Made by a program: the position numbers and the translations under genes. From Actinopolyspora biskrensis (GTDB lineage Bacteria; Actinomycetota; Actinomycetes; Mycobacteriales; Pseudonocardiaceae), in the NCBI RefSeq assembly GCF_013408175.1, contig NZ_JACBYW010000003.1, positions 496,001 through 560,000 of the forward strand: 64,000 nt of DNA, in the 5' to 3' direction. Every line of letters starts with the position of its first letter. The first letter of the stretch is position 1. Shown piece after piece: positions 39,016-46,764 of this stretch. Below the pieces are notes generated by a model. That model saw only the letters and a list, made by a program, of their open reading frames with translations, ran no database searches and was not told the origin of the DNA.

Positions 39016-39164
39016 CGGGGTTGGGGTCGACCAGCTCCTCGAACAGAGCTTCGGTGAGCCTGTCCGGCCCCAGTCGGGGTCGTGGGCGATGTCGTGGGTC
39101 GCGGTGAGTTCTCCCAGCGTGTCGGCGTCGGTGCGCGAAGGTGTGAACTGCATGTGGTTCGTGG

Positions 39165-40085
39165 TCAGCAACTCGCGGGCGGTATCTCCGTCGGTGTCTC
39201 GGCATCGACGATCAAGGACTCTTCCGTCGTGTGGTCGGTCATGACGACCTCGGTGGCTCGTTCGGACAGTACTTTCTGTTCCTGGGCTGACAAGCCCAGG
39301 CGATTCCAGGCGAAAACCGCGTGGTGGGCCAGCACCGCGCGTAGGCCCCGTTCGAGCTGTCCGCGCTGGGCGTGTTCGTCGAGTGTGCTACCGGCGGCTG
39401 CGAACGCATCGAGCCAACCGTGGATCGGTGCGAGCGGACCGCTTTCGGCCAGGCTTGCCGCGTCGGCGGTCATCAACCGCTGCATGTTCTGCCGCTGCTG
39501 TCGAGTGATCGGTAGTGGATGGGTGGACTCGTCGTTGCCGGTGTGTCGCATGCGGGCGATGCGGTTCCACACGTCGCCCTGTTCGTACCAGTCCAGGCCC
39601 GCGCCGCGGAGCAGAGCACTGATCAGCAGTACGCCGAGTTCCCGGCGTCCCGGTTCGGGCGAGGATTCGGCGGCGTGCTGGCGGGCGAGGTAGGCCAAGA
39701 TGTTGCTGCTGTCGCCGTGGAACAGCCTGTGGGCGGTGGTCATCGCAGCCGCGCCGCCGAAGGCCAGTGTTTCCGGCTCGTAGATGCCGTGGGCCCACCA
39801 AGCCACTTCGCCGGTGGCGGTCAGGTCTTCCAGGGTCCGTGCCAGGTAGGTGCGGGCAGCGGTGTCGCCGAGGTAGCGCAGCCGCCAGTGCGGGTGTTTG
39901 CGTACGAAGAACCACTGGTCGAGGCGGCCGTCGTGCTCGGCGGTGGCCAGGGGCGGGTGGAGACGTCGTGCTGCGGTGGTCTCGGCGTTGTCCCAGTCGG
40001 TCCATTCGATCAGCAGCTGTGGCCAGCAGTCGTGGTCGTCATCGGAGTCTTCGCGTTGCCCCGGGGTGGTGCTGTCGGGAAGCAT
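39165..40085 (-). CDS. Stand-alone SpaB_C / thiopeptide-type bacteriocin biosynthesis protein
   Basis: The 306-residue protein has the SpaB_C (glutamate-elimination) fold: PQLLIEWTDWDNAET, LDQWFFVRKHPHWRLRYL, then a helical C-domain (LGVLLISALLRGAGLDWYEQ, AFAWNRLGLSAQEQKVL). Such proteins complete dehydration of Ser/Thr in lanthipeptides and thiopeptides. The ATG at 40085 follows GAGGACCAAGG. It is third of three genes transcribed lanB-lanC-spaB_C. The last about 25 residues (after ATEVV) look unrelated to the domain and start with a Met that has its own GAGG upstream. Confidence 0.82.
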   Translation of the reverse strand: MLPDSTTPGQREDSDDDHDCWPQLLIEWTDWDNAETTAARRLHPPLATAEHDGRLDQWFFVRKHPHWRLRYLGDTAARTYLARTLEDLTATGEVAWWAHGIYEPETLAFGGAAAMTTAHRLFHGDSSNILAYLARQHAAESSPEPGRRELGVLLISALLRGAGLDWYEQGDVWNRIARMRHTGNDESTHPLPITRQQRQNMQRLMTADAASLAESGPLAPIHGWLDAFAAAGSTLDEHAQRGQLERGLRAVLAHHAVFAWNRLGLSAQEQKVLSERATEVVMTDHTTEESLIVDAETPTEIPPASC

Positions 40086-40097
40086 CCTTGGTCCTCG

Positions 40098-41303
40098 TCA
40101 GTTCAGTAGGAGACTCGCGTCCCATGCGCATGAATCGGTGCTGGCGGCTGTGGTGTGCAGGGTGAGGGCTATGCCGGCGGCGCCGGTCAGGAATTCCGGC
40201 GAGTCCGTGTGCTGGTGCTCGGTCAACGTGCTGATCAGTTGTGGAAGGTGCTCACCCAGGTCTTCGGTGACAGCGTCCGCGGCCATGCGCCAGGTGGTTT
40301 GTACGAGTCCGGCGAGTCCGTGGCACAGGCCGGGTTCGGTGAGGTAGGTGCGTTGCTTCGGGTCGGTCAGGCAGCCGAGCAGCGCGGCTTCGCTGGTGCG
40401 CTGGCGGGTCGTGTCGCCCAGGGCGAGGGCGGCGAGCTGCTGGGCACGGGCCAGCCCGGGGGTGCCGTAGCACCAGGAAGGTCGTCCCGGCCCCGTGATG
40501 GGAGCGTCGTCGCGTATCTGGGCGTGGGTGAGCCAGTAGGGCCACCACGGTCCGGCTGGGTGGGGTTGTTGCCAGGTGTCGAGCCAGGTGCAGATCCGGT
40601 CGAGGGCGTCGATGTGTCCGTCCACGGTGATGCCGCGACGCGCTGCTCGGGCGAGAAGAGCGAGTGGTCCGGTGATGCCGTGGGCCATGCCGAGGTTGGC
40701 GTGTCCGTGGGTGAATGCCGGGTCGGGGTCGTCGGGGCTCGGAGCGTGGTCGACCCACCAGCCTGGCGACCCGTCCGGGTGCGGGTGCGTCAGGCGCACC
40801 AGGTAGGACAGCACAGCACGGGTGCTGTCGTGGTGGTTGCGTTGCAGGTGGTATGCCCCGAGGCCGGTGAGCCCGCGCATGAGGTCGTACTCGCGGAAGG
40901 TCGTGGGGTGTCCGCGGTCGATGCGGGTGTGGGCGGCGGCCAGGCGGCGGAAGGTCAGGTCCGTGATGCTCGTGTCGAGTTGGGACAGGGCGCGGGTGAG
41001 TGTGCCCGGCCGTGCGCGAGTGACGAGGTGGGCGGCGAAGGCGCAGGCTGGGGCTCCGAAGAACAGTCCGGCATCGTCTCCGGCGGACAGGTCACCGCTG
41101 AGGGCGGTGGTCAGCCAGGTGTGGGCACTCGCCCGGTCGTCGTGGCCGGAAGCGGCGCGTTCGCTGTGCAGAAGGGCGATCCCGGCCGCTCCGGAGGCCA
41201 AGGACTGCGCCGATGCCCCCGTCTCGGCGAGCCGCTCCGGGGACGTGAGGTTGTGGGCGATGTCGGCGGCGGCCTCCAGCGTCGTCTGAACGGTGGGGGT
41301 CAT
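40098..41303 (-). CDS. lanC: Lanthionine synthetase C family protein (LanC-like cyclase)
   Basis: The 401-residue protein catalyses thioether ring closure in class I lanthipeptides using zinc. It has the family's alpha-toroid repeats with FTHGHANLGMAHGITGPLAL, the zinc Cys in PSWCYGTPGLARA and the Cys-His pair in EPGLCHGLAGLVQT, plus the final FLTGAAGIALTL. The reading frame is intact. Its ATG overlaps the upstream lanB stop by ATGA (41300-41303). Confidence 0.9.
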   Translation of the reverse strand: MTPTVQTTLEAAADIAHNLTSPERLAETGASAQSLASGAAGIALLHSERAASGHDDRASAHTWLTTALSGDLSAGDDAGLFFGAPACAFAAHLVTRARPGTLTRALSQLDTSITDLTFRRLAAAHTRIDRGHPTTFREYDLMRGLTGLGAYHLQRNHHDSTRAVLSYLVRLTHPHPDGSPGWWVDHAPSPDDPDPAFTHGHANLGMAHGITGPLALLARAARRGITVDGHIDALDRICTWLDTWQQPHPAGPWWPYWLTHAQIRDDAPITGPGRPSWCYGTPGLARAQQLAALALGDTTRQRTSEAALLGCLTDPKQRTYLTEPGLCHGLAGLVQTTWRMAADAVTEDLGEHLPQLISTLTEHQHTDSPEFLTGAAGIALTLHTTAASTDSCAWDASLLLN

Positions 41304-44101
41304 GCGGTTCCTTGCTTCCGACGGCTGGTGATGCTCAGGGCGGCGGCGCGGGCCAGGTGCAGACACCGGCGTTCGCGGTCGGGGTCGATGCCGGTCATGC
41401 GCACGTGGTGCAGGTGCAGGAAGTCGCGCAGGATCTCCGTTGGGACCGCAGTTCCGGGCGAGGTGATGGACTGGCGATAGCTGGTCAGTGCGTGGGCACG
41501 GGTTCTCCATGCGGCGAGGGTGGTGTCGCCGCCGGGCAACGCGCGTAGCGCAGTCCACTGGTCGTGGGGGGTGGCGAGTTCGAGTGCCTGGTCGCGGAGT
41601 CCTCGGGGCGGGGCTGGTGTGTGGGTGCGGGGGATGTGGTCGATCAGCCACCGCGTCCCCTGCTCGATGTTGCCGAGGTAGGAGATCACCAGGTCGACCA
41701 TGCTCGCGGCCGTGATCGCCTCGCTGGACGCGCCCGCGCGGGTGTGTTCCAGCTGCGTGAGCACGGCCGCGGAGTCGGCGGCGAAGAGGGATTCGGCCGC
41801 GCGCATGGCTTCCCCGTCGCCGAACCGGCCGGTTTCGGGGCGATAGGTCTCCAGGGTCATTCCGCCCAGCAGACCTCGTTGGCGCAGGGCGTGAGCCCAA
41901 GCGCTGACACGGGCGGCAGCGGTTCCGAACTCGTCGGGGTGGTTCAACCGGATGCGCAGCCGCAGGTGCGGGTGGGGGTCGGCATAGCGCAGGAACCACC
42001 ACTGCGGGTGGTTGTCCCACTGGTCCAGCAGCCGAGGCAGATGGTCGGTGAGGAGGTGTGTCTGCCGGTCGGGATGGCCGTGGAGCTGGGCGTAGAGCCA
42101 GGTTCCGGCTCCGGGCAGGTGTCCGTGTTCACGAGCGTGCACGGTGACGGGAGAGCGCGTGCGTGCCGCGGGTCCGGCCTCTGGGGCGGCTGTGGAGGTC
42201 ATCGGGGCGACGAGGTCGTGAGCGCGGCCGTCGATCCAGTCGAAGGCACCGGGCGGGGGTGCTTCACGTAGGGTGAGGCGCTCGTTGCGGTCGAGCTCGG
42301 TGCGCAACAGCTGCTGGTGGGTGGGGTCGTCCAGGTTCAGGTGCAGCCGTTGATCACCATCACCGAGGTACACGTCGTCGGCGACGTGGAACCGGTCTCG
42401 CCAGGTGGCCAGTGCTTCGGCCCATCGGGTCCCGTCGGCGTCGTGCGGCAGTTCGCGGGAGGTAAGTGTCCACTGGGCGGGAGCGAGGATGCTGCGCTGG
42501 TAGCGCACGCGCGGTAGGTATGGCAGCTGTCCTGCTGCTTTGCCCCAGGCGAAGGGGCCGAGGGTCGGGGTGCGGGCCGTGGTGATCTCGGCCAGAAACC
42601 GAGCCAGCGGGTGTGTGTGGTGGGTGAATTCCACGGCATTGACCATGATCGGCTCAACCACCTGCCCGTGGGTGAGTGAGACGAGGTAGAGGCGGTCGAG
42701 GTCGCCGGTCACGGTGAGGTCGTCGACAGCGAGCCGGTTCACGCGATGCTCACCCAGGGACAGCACCTCGGGCAGCACAGCGGGACTGCGGGCGACGTTG
42801 TGGGTACGGGTGTGCAGCGGTGGGCAGGAGAGCTGCACGGGAACGGCCTCTCGGGCGAGTGTGGGAAGCCGAGCGTAGGTCTCCGTCAGGCGCTTGCGTT
42901 CGGGCTCGGCGAGCGCGTCCAGGAAACGTCCGGTCAGGGTGCCCGCCGCACGGGAGATTCCGGCAACCGCTAACTCGAACTCGCCACGGTCGATGGCCTC
43001 GGGGGTTGTGGCGTGGACACGAAACGAGAGTTCACAGTGTGGACGACGCCGCGGAGTCTCGGAAGTGGCTGCCAGCGCGGCCACCGTGTCCTCGTCGAGG
43101 TGGACCTCCCGGCGTTGATCGAGGGCGGCCCGTTGTGCCAGGGAGAGCAGCCGCGCGTCCCGCTCGGAGAGGCCCTGTTGCCCCACGTCCAGGAGGGAGT
43201 CCCGGTATCCGGCGGGATAGCCGAGCCCGGTGTCGGGGTCGAGCAGGTCGCGAACGGGTACGTGCGCGCCGGGTCCGTAGCGTTCGAGGAACCGGTGGTG
43301 GTAGTCGATCCACTCGGTGCTGCCCTGAGGGTGCGGGCTCAGGCGTGCAAGCACGTCTACCGTGGATTCGGCCTCCCGCCAGACAGGTTCGGGAAGACTC
43401 ACCGAGCAATCGGCGTGCAGATCCACCATGACGGGCTTGTCGGTGGCAGCCAGGGCCGACATCCGTGTCGACAGCGATCTGCGCAGCGCGCCGGGCTCGG
43501 ACGGAGGCGTCGCGGCGTTGTGCCGGGCGAACTCGCCCCGCACCTCGCGCAGCTCGTTGATCAACGCGACCGCGTCCTCCGGAAGTTCGTCCAGGTCGAA
43601 GGTGTCGAGTTCGGCCACGACGTGCTCCACCGAGTCGGTGCTGGTCATGGGAGGACGCAGGTTGCTGATCAGCACGCGTTGTTCGATCAGCTCATCCACC
43701 ATGTGCTCGATCGCCGCGAGCGAGCTGCGGGGAAACTCGTGCTCCAGCCTGGTTATCAGGGCGGTAACCGGGATGGGGGTGTCGGCGGTTCGCAGGGCGA
43801 TGTCGACGGCACGGGTGTAGCGCACCGAGATCTCGGCGGGTCCCTTGTGGTCTGTGCGTGGCTGGTGGGTGATCACGAGTCGGTCGCCGCGGGTCTCGGC
43901 GATGTTGGTGGACACCACGCGAAGTCGGTGCCGGAGCGCTCGACACCGTTCCAACGAGGTGATCACCTGATTGATCCACTCGGACTCGGCCCGCGCATGG
44001 ACACGGTGATCCACGAGTCCGGCCTCCGTCAGCTGGTCGGCGGTACCGACGTGATGCGGGAACAGTTGGAACATCTCGTCACGATGGGCGACCTGCCGCA
44101 T
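41300..44101 (-). pseudogene. lanB: Lanthipeptide dehydratase (LanB), 5'-truncated
   Basis: The open frame gives 933 residues. Recognisable LanB sequence starts only at ESEWINQVITSLERCRALRH (near 43985), followed by RGDRLVITHQP, GPAEISVRYTRAV and LRPPMTSTDSVEHVVAEL. It continues through the glutamylation domain to a fused SpaB_C domain (WWFLRYADPHPHLRLRIRL). Family members carry about 110-150 more residues before this point. The 38 residues encoded beyond it are antisense to a DUF5753 regulator. The normal start, promoter and the RATPFG-type region are missing. Function is doubtful. Confidence 0.8.
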
Positions 44102-44350
44102 GTCACTCTACAAGTACTGCCGTTCAGCGCGGGCGCGGTGCCCGCGCTCGGCGCACCGTTCATCATCCTCTCGTTCCCTGACCAGGAAGACCCCGACGTT
44201 CCATACACGGACTACCTGACCGGCTGCGTCTACGTGGAGGACGAGGACGAGGTCGCATCGTATAACCTGAATTACAGCGCTCTTGAACAAGCGGCGCTGA
44301 CCCCCGCAGACTCGACAGAGTTCCTCTCCAAGCTTGCCGGGGAGCTATGA
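43997..44350 (+). pseudogene. DUF5753-domain regulator, N-terminally truncated, copy 1
   Basis: Residues from MDTVIHESGLRQLVGGTDVM match the C-terminal half of XRE-family DUF5753 regulators, followed by MREQLEHLV, VTLQVLPFSAGAVPALGAPF and YLTGCVYVEDEDEVASYNL. The helix-turn-helix and first half of DUF5753 are absent because lanB sequence lies directly upstream. No ribosome site is seen before the ATG. The stop overlaps an ATG of the DUF397 frame. Confidence 0.78.
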
Positions 44351-44367
44351 GTACAAGGAGCACCCAC

Positions 44368-44577
44368 ATGACCGCCCCAGACTTCAGTCAGGCTCGCTGG
44401 CACAAAAGCAGCCGCAGCAACGGCGGCGGTGCAGCTTGCGTCATGGTGGCGCACGTGCCCACCGCCACCGGCGTCGCCGACAGCAAACTCGGCGACGACA
44501 GCCCCGTCCTGCCGTTCGGCAAAACCGCGTGGACACAGTTCCTCGACGCGATCAAAAGCGACCGCCTCGACAGCTGA
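44368..44577 (+). CDS. DUF397 protein, copy 1
   Basis: The 69-residue DUF397 protein has QARWHKSSRSNGGGAACVMVA, GVADSKLGDDSPVLPF and WTQFLDAIKSDRLDS. DUF397 genes typically follow XRE/DUF5753 regulators in actinomycetes, where the pair acts as a regulator-partner system (BldB-like in Streptomyces). AAGGAG at 44355-44360 supports the ATG at 44368; the frame is also open from 44347. Confidence 0.85.
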   Translation: MTAPDFSQARWHKSSRSNGGGAACVMVAHVPTATGVADSKLGDDSPVLPFGKTAWTQFLDAIKSDRLDS

Positions 44578-44590
44578 TCCCGCTTCGCGA

Positions 44591-44621
44591 AGTCCCGCTC
44601 GATGTGCCGTCGGGCGGGACT
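44591..44621 (+). terminator. Hairpin after DUF397 copy 1
   Basis: AGTCCCGC (44591-44598) pairs with GCGGGACT (44614-44621). The same structure follows DUF397 copy 2, so it belongs to the duplicated unit. Confidence 0.65.
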
Positions 44622-44808
44622 CCTTCATGGTAGGCCGCTGTGCCCAACGCTCCAAAGTTCAGTTGACCAGCTCGATCACGACATCACACGCCGCATGAGA
44701 CCTCAGCTCATGTTCCGGAAGGTTTCTGGGCCGTGATCCCAGCACCGAACTGCGACAGCGCCGGACACAAAAACAGCCTCACACTCGGTCGTCCTCAGCG
44801 AAGGTACG

Positions 44809-45144
44809 TTGAAACGCCGAATTGGCGGCACAGCGGTCATGACCGAACAGCTGGAACTTCTCTGCGACTTGGCGGAACTCCAGCACGTAGCGGTGCAGGT
44901 GCTGCCGTTCAGTGCCGGTAGCCACGCTTCGCTGGGCACTTCCTTCACGATCCTGCGGCTGCGCAACAACCACAAGCGCACGGTGTATGTCGAAGACATC
45001 ACAAGCGCGGACTACCTGGATCGACCGCACCACCTCGACACGTATAACCTGGTCTACGAGCGGCTACGGATGGAAGCACTCGGCTTGAACGAGTCCAAAT
45101 CCATGCTGAAGCAGACCATAGAAGAGCTTGGCGCTGGAAGGTGA
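44809..45144 (+). pseudogene. DUF5753-domain regulator, truncated and decayed, copy 2
   Basis: The open frame from TTG at 44809 starts LKRRIGGTAVMTEQLELLCD and contains VAVQVLPFSAGSHASLGTSF and VERLR-like C-terminal sequence, i.e. the second half of DUF5753. Upstream codons in this frame give SVVLSEG. The preceding ELRQRRTQKQP motif lies in another frame (about 44745-44780), so a frameshift separates the halves. No HTH domain remains. A second DUF397 gene follows. Confidence 0.7.
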
Positions 45145-45148
45145 CGGG

Positions 45149-45355
45149 ATGACCCCCAATCTCACCGAGGCGCGGTGGCGCAAGTCCACCCGAAGCAGCG
45201 GTAACGGCGGTGCCTGCGTTGAAGTGGGGATCGCGCCTTCCGCTGCCGGAGTACGCGACACGAAACTCGGCGACGACAGCCCCACCCTCGCGTTCACACG
45301 TTCGCGGTGGGGCTCCTTCCTCGACGCGATCAAGAGCGACCGCCTCGACGGCTGA
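45149..45355 (+). CDS. DUF397 protein, copy 2
   Basis: The 68-residue product has TEARWRKSTRSSGNGGACVEV, GVRDTKLGDDSPTLAF and WGSFLDAIKSDRLDG. It is very like copy 1 (shared KLGDDSP and FLDAIKSDRLD). GGAAGG lies 7 nt before the ATG at 45149. Confidence 0.85.
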   Translation: MTPNLTEARWRKSTRSSGNGGACVEVGIAPSAAGVRDTKLGDDSPTLAFTRSRWGSFLDAIKSDRLDG

Positions 45356-45489: not shown

Positions 45490-45612
45490 ATGCTGTGGAG
45501 GTCGAGCATGGGCAAGCGCGACTCGGACCGGGACGGCCAGGGCACTCCCCAACCGGACGAGTGGGAGAACTGGGAAACCGAGGACGACGGGGACAAGCAC
45601 GAGGACAAGTAG
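45490..45612 (+). CDS. 40-aa acidic peptide, candidate RiPP precursor
   Basis: An ATG at 45490 lies 9 nt after GAGGGG and gives MLWRSSMGKRDSDRDGQGTP followed by an acidic, Trp-containing tail with DEWENWETEDDGDKHEDK at the end. A second Met (45508) could also start it. The stop is 14 nt before the methyltransferase ATG. It has no Cys, so it is not a lanthionine substrate. Two Asp-Gly pairs and the adjacent isoaspartate-methyltransferase-like gene suggest a substrate for aspartimide formation, as in imiditide-type RiPPs. This is inference from context and composition. Confidence 0.5.
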   Translation: MLWRSSMGKRDSDRDGQGTPQPDEWENWETEDDGDKHEDK

Positions 45613-45626
45613 CGACGGCACGGCGG

Positions 45627-46732
45627 ATGACTCACTCACGTGCTCGGCTCCCGGTACCGCGCGACCGGTTCGTTCCGTCCGTGGTCTGGCTGGAAAACCC
45701 CGCTGGTGACGGATTCACCCCCGTCTCCCGCACCGACGACGAAGCCGGGTGGCGTGCCCTGGTCGAGGCGGACGAACCGATCGTCACCCAGGTCGACGAC
45801 GGCAGGGCACCACCGAACGGCGTGGGCCTGCGCCCGTCCAGTTCGTGCAGCCAACCGTCCCTGGTCGCCGCCATGCTCGAGGAGCTCGACGTGCGCGCGG
45901 GCCACCGCGTGCTGGAGATCGGCACGGGAACCGGCTGGAACGCCGCCCTGCTCGCCGAGCGGGTCGGCGAACGCGGACGTGTCGTATCGGTCGAAGTGGA
46001 CACCGGGGTCGCGGACCGAGCCCGAGCCCGCCTGCTCCGCGCCGGCTACTCCCCGCTGGTCGTGACCGCGGACGGCCTCGCCGGGCACCCTCCCGCAGCC
46101 CCGTACGACCGGGTGGTCTGCACCGCCTCCGCCCGGCGGATCCCGCGCGTGGATCGAGCAGACCCGGCCCGGTGGAATGATCGTCACCCCGTGGGGAACC
46201 GACTACGGCGACGACGCGCTCACGCGGTGGGAGGTGCACGAGGACGGCTCGGCCTCAGGCCGATGTGGAACGAATCTGGCGTTCATGCGGCTCGGGGACC
46301 AGCGCCGCGACTTCCTCGAACCGAGCGAAGGCGAGATCGAATCGGCGGACAGAACGGTGACCCGACGCGGCGGGCGGGAACTGTTCGAAATGGTCTCCTT
46401 CGCGCACGCCTCCTTCACGATCGGGCTAAGCGTGCCGAACTGCTACGTCACCGTGGAGGACCTCGACGCCGACCACCGCAACGTGGAACTGCACGATGCC
46501 CGCTCGACTTCGTGGGCGCGGGTGGAGCTCGTCCGTGGCCGGCATCCGTGGACCGTGCGCCAACTCGGCCCGCGCCGCCTGTGGGACGAGGTGGACACCG
46601 CCCACCGCTGGTGGGTAGACGCGGGGAAACCGACACCGGAGCAGTACGAACCGACCGTGGCCCCCGGACGGAACGCACGCGGTCCGGCTCGACACCCAGG
46701 CCGGTCCACACCGGTGGCAGGTGACCGCGTGA
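45627..46732 (+). pseudogene. Protein-L-isoaspartate O-methyltransferase-like gene with two frameshifts
   Basis: Frame 1 (from ATG 45627) has RDRFVPSVVWLENPAG, PIVTQVDDG, SSCSQPSLVAAMLEEL and the SAM motif VLEIGTGTGWNAALLAERVG, to CTASARRIP near 46150. Homology resumes one base over as AWIEQTRPGGMIVTPWGTD and continues to WWVDAGKPTPEQYEPTVAP near 46660. It then shifts again at a C5 run, giving DGTHAVRLDTQAGPHRWQV and a stop at 46730-46732. Both shifts equal one extra base. RiPP-associated PIMT homologues share this layout. It is a real pseudogene or carries two sequencing errors. Confidence 0.8.
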
Positions 46733-46764
46733 CCGAGGTTCTCCGCTCAGGTTGACCAGGTGGT

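Follow-up and report, generated by a model that had tools for sequence, protein, structure and literature searches.

The stretch of DNA analysed here (the window) comprises 64,000 nucleotides of the forward strand of Actinopolyspora biskrensis (assembly GCF_013408175.1, contig NZ_JACBYW010000003.1, positions 496,001 to 560,000), and coordinates are those of the window unless a locus is named. Papers are cited by PMC number. The locus was compared with that of a sibling genome (G001) and with related loci in other genomes. A preliminary description had placed a peptide gene and a methyltransferase gene behind DUF5753 and DUF397 genes, and genes of these two kinds were found at 44785-45144 and 45149-45355, respectively. 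The features are as follows.

39030-44784 (no strand assigned): DNA that does not align with the sibling genome, with genes for LanB, LanC, a Lant_dehydr_C protein, a partial DUF5753 protein and a DUF397 protein; not part of the imiditide system
44785-45144 (+): later part of a DUF5753 helix-turn-helix regulator; the DNA-binding part and the first part of DUF5753 are missing, and the alignment with the sibling starts at 44785
45149-45355 (+): DUF397 protein, partner of the regulator (9.5e-19); this gene is open in the sibling as well
45508-45612 (+): imiditide-type precursor peptide of 34 aa, delimited by alignment with 15 relatives; the predicted modified residue is Asp9 (Asp9-Gly10)
45627-46148 (+): first in-frame piece of a PIMT-like methyltransferase, including the SAM-binding GTGTG (TIGR04188, 1.5e-56; PCMT, 2e-26)
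46177-46755 (+): open reading frame in a different frame with the C-terminal domain of the methyltransferase (TIGR04188, 5.6e-20; WVDAGKP at 46612)

In the sibling genome all four genes (regulator, DUF397, peptide and a methyltransferase of 368 aa) are open.

The peptide had been described as an acidic, Cys-free product of 40 residues. It has no Cys and it is acidic, and the length was revised: alignment with the peptides of the relatives begins at the second ATG (45508), six nucleotides downstream of a GGAGG (45497-45501), so that a product of 34 and not 40 residues is most likely. The longer version, which starts at the upstream ATG (45490), is common to the window and the sibling (locus L089). 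The gap of 14 nucleotides proposed between the two genes was found as described, the peptide frame ending at 45612 and the methyltransferase gene starting with the ATG at 45627. The net charge of the window peptide is -8, as compared to -1 to -9 in 15 relatives, 11 of which lie at -4 to -6. Lys18 (present in 15/15 of the other aligned peptides) and Lys25 (12/15) are both replaced by Glu in the window, and part of the strong acidity is therefore peculiar to this copy of a peptide whose group as a whole is net acidic.

The methyltransferase gene is broken. The frame is lost near position 46148 and again near position 46670, and comparison with the sibling places the end of the gene in the third frame, with a stop at about 46732. 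TIGR04188 was the best family for both pieces, the first of which covers positions 19-188 and the second positions 205-360 of the 363 in the model; the C-terminal extension is located in the second piece. The scores were below the curated cut-off of 380 bits for the window pieces (192 and 72 bits), for an intact relative (L010, 314 bits) and for the sibling (313 bits). The FxLD-system model scored well below TIGR04188 on the window enzyme (125 versus 192 bits). TIGR04188 matched in all 17 relatives scanned, covering positions 22-362 in L010, and the other 16 of 17 aligned enzymes were 44-73% identical to that of L010. In the relatives with this type of peptide the enzymes are 359-376 aa long and carry a C-terminal extension of more than 100 aa. 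The exact WxxxGxP motif occurs in 68 of 81 enzymes and is absent from L013, L014 and L020, as well as from truncated enzymes such as that of L018.

An AlphaFold2 model of the intact L010 enzyme (pLDDT of 91.8) had as its best fold match the PIMT of T. maritima (1DL5; 365 alignment columns of 368 residues), with TM-scores of only 0.49-0.57 and an rmsd of 8.8; the low TM-scores would fit shifted domains. Among models of defence systems only mad2 matched, partially and within the region of the methyltransferase, and this was attributed to the shared methyltransferase fold. For the enzyme tree 39 rows were used, 35 of them loci hand-chosen from the best 80 of 421, plus four others. Ten enzymes of this peptide group fell on one side of a branch with a support of 100/99, placed among the enzymes of other two-gene peptide loci, and the graspetide-type enzyme of the window's own genome was found on a long branch whose placement is unsure.

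Related loci were represented by the best 80 of 421 confirmed. Many of these come from related Streptomyces, Kitasatospora or Actinomadura, so that counts made over them are not independent, and L013, L014 and L018, as well as L016 and L017, are near copies. Peptides were picked across the loci by a motif score in which Asp-Gly and a Lys/Arg-His tail count in favour; counts of Asp-Gly would therefore be circular outside an alignment of 16 peptides, composed of the window and 15 hand-chosen relatives. The preliminary description had proposed a search of related genomes for the peptide next to intact methyltransferases, and there the peptide was found to be conserved. In all of the 11 closest named loci (L009 to L018 and, by its E-value, L031; from the best 80 of 421) a peptide that can be aligned over its full length directly precedes the enzyme; the peptide frame stops somewhere from 18 nt upstream of the beginning of the enzyme match to 1 nt into it. 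The enzyme is full length in ten of the 11 (it is truncated in L018), and the same two-gene arrangement, with a full-length enzyme, is present in G001 and G032. The sequence KWE(N/T)W is common to ten of the 11 peptides, the variant in L031 being KLASW. Asp9-Gly10 is found in 16/16 aligned peptides, Asp27 in 15/16, and a KHE or KHD tail also in 15/16 (AHE in L031), and the first 32 residues are near-invariant across genera. Among the 11 peptides (55 pairs), 604 of 886 nucleotide differences lie at third codon positions. Values of pN/pS were determined over the first 31 codons in 11 chosen pairs and were 0.05-0.15 in the eight without the window; the window against L013 or L014 gave 0.14, like the other pairs. 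These comparisons of coding sequence indicate that selection on the peptide is purifying. The enzyme was found, at E 1e-40 or better, in 5 of 9 other Actinopolyspora genomes and in 14 of the 61 genomes searched (the 4.95 Mb genome of the window included); same-genus relatives include G003, G004, G006 and G008.

The presence of a PCMT domain would also suit an ordinary protein-repair PIMT that happens to lie beside a meaningless acidic reading frame. The C-terminal extension and the conservation of the peptide across genera, under purifying selection, argue against this, and on L010 models of repair PIMTs scored at most about one third of what TIGR04188 did and covered the catalytic domain only; the probability of such an arrangement is negligible.

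Enzyme family, C-terminal domain, peptide motif and gene order instead support the assignment of the window pair to the imiditides or type I pamtides, as defined in PMC10787088 and PMC13001092, and the membership in this class put forward in the preliminary description agrees with these features and with the conservation of the peptide beside intact enzymes. The system is not new, as the class has already been published (the original paper on imiditides is Cao et al., 2023, as cited in PMC11048544) and 1,414 type I pamtides are reported in a review (PMC13001092); the window copy is a further, apparently decayed member. In common with the pairs NmaA-NmaM and SpaA-SpaM, the locus has a short, linear, Cys-free peptide with a conserved Asp-Gly and a charged tail, and a PIMT homologue 3' of the peptide gene with a C-terminal domain and the WxxxGxP motif; in the eight genomes checked, neither an ATP-grasp nor a LanB enzyme lies close to the pair. 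It differs in that the peptides of this subfamily are Pro-poor, unlike the published average, carry Trp (in KWE(N/T)W) and are net acidic, and in that the window copy is broken. In NmaA the modified Asp is followed by His (PMC13001092), whereas Gly follows the predicted one here. A strong positive charge is ascribed to imiditides in the review; since only 2 of 38 peptides from related loci are net positive, charge is no clean mark of the class. The mark of type II pamtides or cysimiditides (two CxxCxGxG motifs) is absent from the Cys-free window peptide, and Cys-bearing peptides with the look of that type were seen at L054 and L087. Among the literature matches listed, none combines imiditides or pamtides with Actinopolyspora or Saccharopolyspora.

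The genes for LanB, LanC and the Lant_dehydr_C protein lie within about 6.5 kb of the pair, class I lanthipeptide clusters often contain PIMT homologues (PMC13001092), and in the sibling an FxLD-system methyltransferase, of the lanthipeptide type, is encoded about 3 kb from the pair. One could accordingly suppose that the lanthipeptide cluster next to it uses the enzyme in an accessory role (LanSA). The sibling, however, has the enzyme and the peptide without that cluster, the best family of the enzyme is TIGR04188 and not the FxLD system, and the pair is kept in G003, G004, G017 and G027, where the whole genome was searched for LanB and gave no match. Searches with the window's own LanB and LanC (E 1e-5, up to 4 kb on each side) likewise gave 0 matches in the best 80 of 421 loci, and an accessory role of this kind is very improbable. 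The alternative offered in the preliminary description, of an independent system sharing an island with the lanthipeptide cluster, found no support, as the island is absent beside the pair of the sibling and its LanB and LanC are not matched in the best 80 of 421 loci.

Graspetide precursors contain a Thr/Ser-Glu core. A graspetide system in which the ATP-grasp enzyme is encoded elsewhere and the methyltransferase is secondary would be in keeping with the name of TIGR04188, a family named after ATP-grasp systems, and five of the eight genomes with the pair have an above-cut-off match to TIGR04187 (the ATP-grasp maturase) elsewhere or at a distance. When these eight genomes were searched for the two families TIGR04187 and PF04738 (LanB), no match was found within 74 kb of the pair in any of them, and the closest match to a primary enzyme on the same contig was about 74 kb away (G017). 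The pair is kept in G003, which has no match to either family, and in G004, which has only a 20-bit match to TIGR04187, and the peptide is without a core like that of graspetides. A graspetide system is, on this evidence, highly unlikely. The lanthipeptide and graspetide readings were both rejected, with TIGR04188 as the best family, no match to the LanB or LanC of the window in the best 80 of 421 loci and no ATP-grasp enzyme near the pair in the eight genomes; for the two enzyme families searched, this suggests that the two genes work alone.

In the genome of the window the only TIGR04187 match is a stretch of 60 positions (252-311 of 312) on another contig, beside a graspetide-type methyltransferase (L002, L105), and is possibly what is left of a truncated graspetide locus. 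Contig C1 of the same genome carries two FxLD-system methyltransferases and three matches to FxLD precursors (L003, L004, L117, L118 and L119). Graspimiditides (group 13 graspetides) also have TIGR04188 methyltransferases, and DUF397 and DUF5753 genes are reported to adjoin graspetide groups 11 and 13 (PMC13097080); the present pair differs from graspimiditides in having no ATP-grasp enzyme nearby and a linear precursor without the graspetide core. With the lanthimiditides (OlvA-OlvSA) and the FxLD-system methyltransferases it shares a PIMT-like enzyme acting, as predicted here, on a peptide Asp. OlvSA, however, acts only after OlvB and OlvC (PMC13001092), and most lanthimiditide precursors contain a TxDGC motif, whereas the window peptide has no Cys; the lower score of the FxLD-system model is a further difference.

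When the window was aligned with the sibling by blastn (E 1e-10), the two were 93% identical up to position 39029 and 96% identical from position 44785, and nothing aligned between these positions. The corresponding interval of the sibling encodes an FxLD-system methyltransferase (547 bits) together with the beginning of the regulator, which in that genome is a protein of 281 aa with HTH_31 and DUF5753. The junction of the island cuts the regulator on the imiditide side, leaving in the window no more than the C-terminal portion of DUF5753 (positions 79-178 of 178 when the reading frame is taken from 44809, or 55-178 from about 44740). Between the IucA-like siderophore gene and the imiditide locus (39030-44784 in the window; L106:8712-12512) the two siblings have different RiPP genes, and the interval is a possible integration hotspot. 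Within it the match of the LanB gene (41300-44101, minus strand) to Lant_dehydr_N does not begin until profile position 78, and the partial DUF5753 gene (43991-44350, plus strand; positions 67-177 only) overlaps it on the other strand. Both look cut at one junction, and the lanthipeptide cluster of the window may therefore itself be a remnant.

The best explanation of the whole, to which a probability of about 0.78 is assigned, is that an Actinopolyspora species carries here a stand-alone imiditide (type I pamtide) locus in the course of decay. With a regulator that lacks its DNA-binding part and an enzyme whose frame is lost twice, the pair in the window is, judged from its sequence, very likely inactive. 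Between the window and the sibling, pN/pS was 0.56 for the enzyme (31 nonsynonymous and 20 synonymous changes) and 0.65 for the peptide (0.68 over its first 31 codons), from four changes only; the values for PEPCK, the siderophore-interacting protein and the IucA-like protein were 0.07, 0.20 and 0.33, and that for the regulator remnant was 0.11 (four changes). For the enzyme in two pairs of intact relatives, values of about 0.21 and 0.30 were obtained. In Fisher tests, the ratio of 31:20 gave p values of 0.00002 against PEPCK, 0.007 against the siderophore-interacting protein, 0.19 against the IucA-like protein, and 0.04 and 0.16 against the two pairs of intact relatives. Nine relatives agree without exception at 121 alignment columns; the window differs from them at seven of these and the sibling at four. 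The rates are consistent with decay and are no proof of it; the frame breaks themselves carry the claim.

The frame breaks could also be errors of sequencing or assembly in a pair that is functional. Both are located in short G+C-rich runs, which are frequent sites of base-calling errors, codons 1-118 of the enzyme are near-identical to those of the sibling (three nonsynonymous and four synonymous changes), and the rate evidence for decay is modest. The long syntenic genes around the locus are, however, unbroken relative to the sibling (coverage of 1.00 for PEPCK, 0.95 for the siderophore-interacting protein and 1.00 for the IucA-like protein), and errors in runs can explain neither the missing part of the regulator nor the two Lys-to-Glu changes. 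Errors are thus an unlikely explanation, if one of appreciable weight, and decay is the preferred reading. Further split reading frames among the surrounding genes were taken to be shadow ORFs. With decay, an apparent loss in nature could be set against the version that is still open in the sibling.

In the intact relatives, a dedicated PIMT-like methyltransferase, equipped with a C-terminal recognition domain, probably acts on a linear peptide of 33-43 aa. If NmaA/NmaM and SpaA/SpaM are a guide, the enzyme would methylate a single Asp while the peptide is still unmodified (+14 Da), the resulting ester would close onto the next backbone amide to form an aspartimide (-18 Da), and the aspartimide would hydrolyse, largely to isoaspartate; the conserved Lys-His-Glu tail is the putative recognition element. 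The target is most likely Asp9, in Arg-Asp9-Gly10, because all 16 aligned peptides have this residue, Gly comes directly after it, and L027 has it but no Asp27. Since Asn-Gly stands in the place of Asp9-Gly10 in L019, of a neighbouring clade (by eye), and Asp27 is found in nearly all of the aligned rows, the target residue is not certain. No electrostatic covariation was detected between the peptide and the C-terminal domain of the enzyme (Spearman coefficient of -0.08 over 38 hand-picked loci).

Regulator genes were counted with profiles for DUF5753-type proteins, DUF6879 and DUF397, within 2.5 kb of the enzyme in the best 80 of 421 loci. A DUF5753-type regulator was found upstream in 34 of the 80 loci and downstream in six, DUF6879 in 16 versus one, DUF397 in 12 versus seven, and any of the three in 38 versus eight; when DUF5753-type regulators were counted by tblastn in the same loci, 29 were upstream and four downstream. 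The genome of the window has 29 DUF5753 matches in its 4.95 Mb, and if the density is the same elsewhere, one or two upstream matches would be expected in 80 loci. None of the three was found upstream in 42 of these 80 loci, including L010, L011, L012, L015 and L031. In the 11 closest loci, a DUF6879 gene lies upstream in six (L009, L013, L014 and L016 to L018), beside which a DUF5753 regulator was found in five by tblastn (in fragments in L017) and in four by profile. The view that the DUF5753 and DUF397 neighbours are incidental, as one DUF5753 query had matched only 2 of the 12 nearest loci, was overturned by the comparison of neighbours and the profile searches.

The regulator of the sibling, with HTH_31 and DUF5753 and followed by an open DUF397 gene, is built like Scr1/Scr2 and the WhiJ-type XRE-DUF397 pairs. 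Scr1 and WhiJ are taken to share this DUF5753 type. Such pairs serve as regulators: antibiotic production is activated by Scr1/Scr2 (PMC6262351), and WhiJ9 turns on a gene adjacent to it (PMC10294661). For the imiditide genes a regulatory role is, by contrast, a prediction; the DUF5753 regulator and its DUF397 partner probably control the expression of the pair. HTH-DUF5753 proteins have been listed beside ATP-grasp loci (PMC8939145). The main texts of PMC10787088 and PMC13001092 make no mention of a regulator, helix-turn-helix, XRE, DUF397 or DUF5753, and the linkage of imiditide loci to a DUF5753-type regulator, as deduced from gene neighbourhoods, goes beyond these two papers. The biological role of type I pamtides is still open (PMC13001092, Conclusion), and the DUF5753-type regulator often found beside the wider class provides a concrete handle on it. 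The peptide of the present subfamily is near-fixed across genera, acidic and Pro-poor; a conserved partner within the cell would account for its near-invariant first 32 residues and its net acidity more readily than a role as an arms-race toxin. It is conceivable, at rather low odds, that imiditides of this kind are effectors or signals in a regulatory circuit and not secreted antibiotics; the DUF5753-type regulator that recurs upstream would govern their production and might also sense them.

Damage was also seen at loci other than that of the window. Actinopolyspora righensis has two imiditide loci (L017 and L018) about 6 kb apart, and it is the enzyme of L018 that is truncated. In G010 (L095) the reading frame of the peptide follows that of the family only as far as the Trp motif, which would suit a frameshift.
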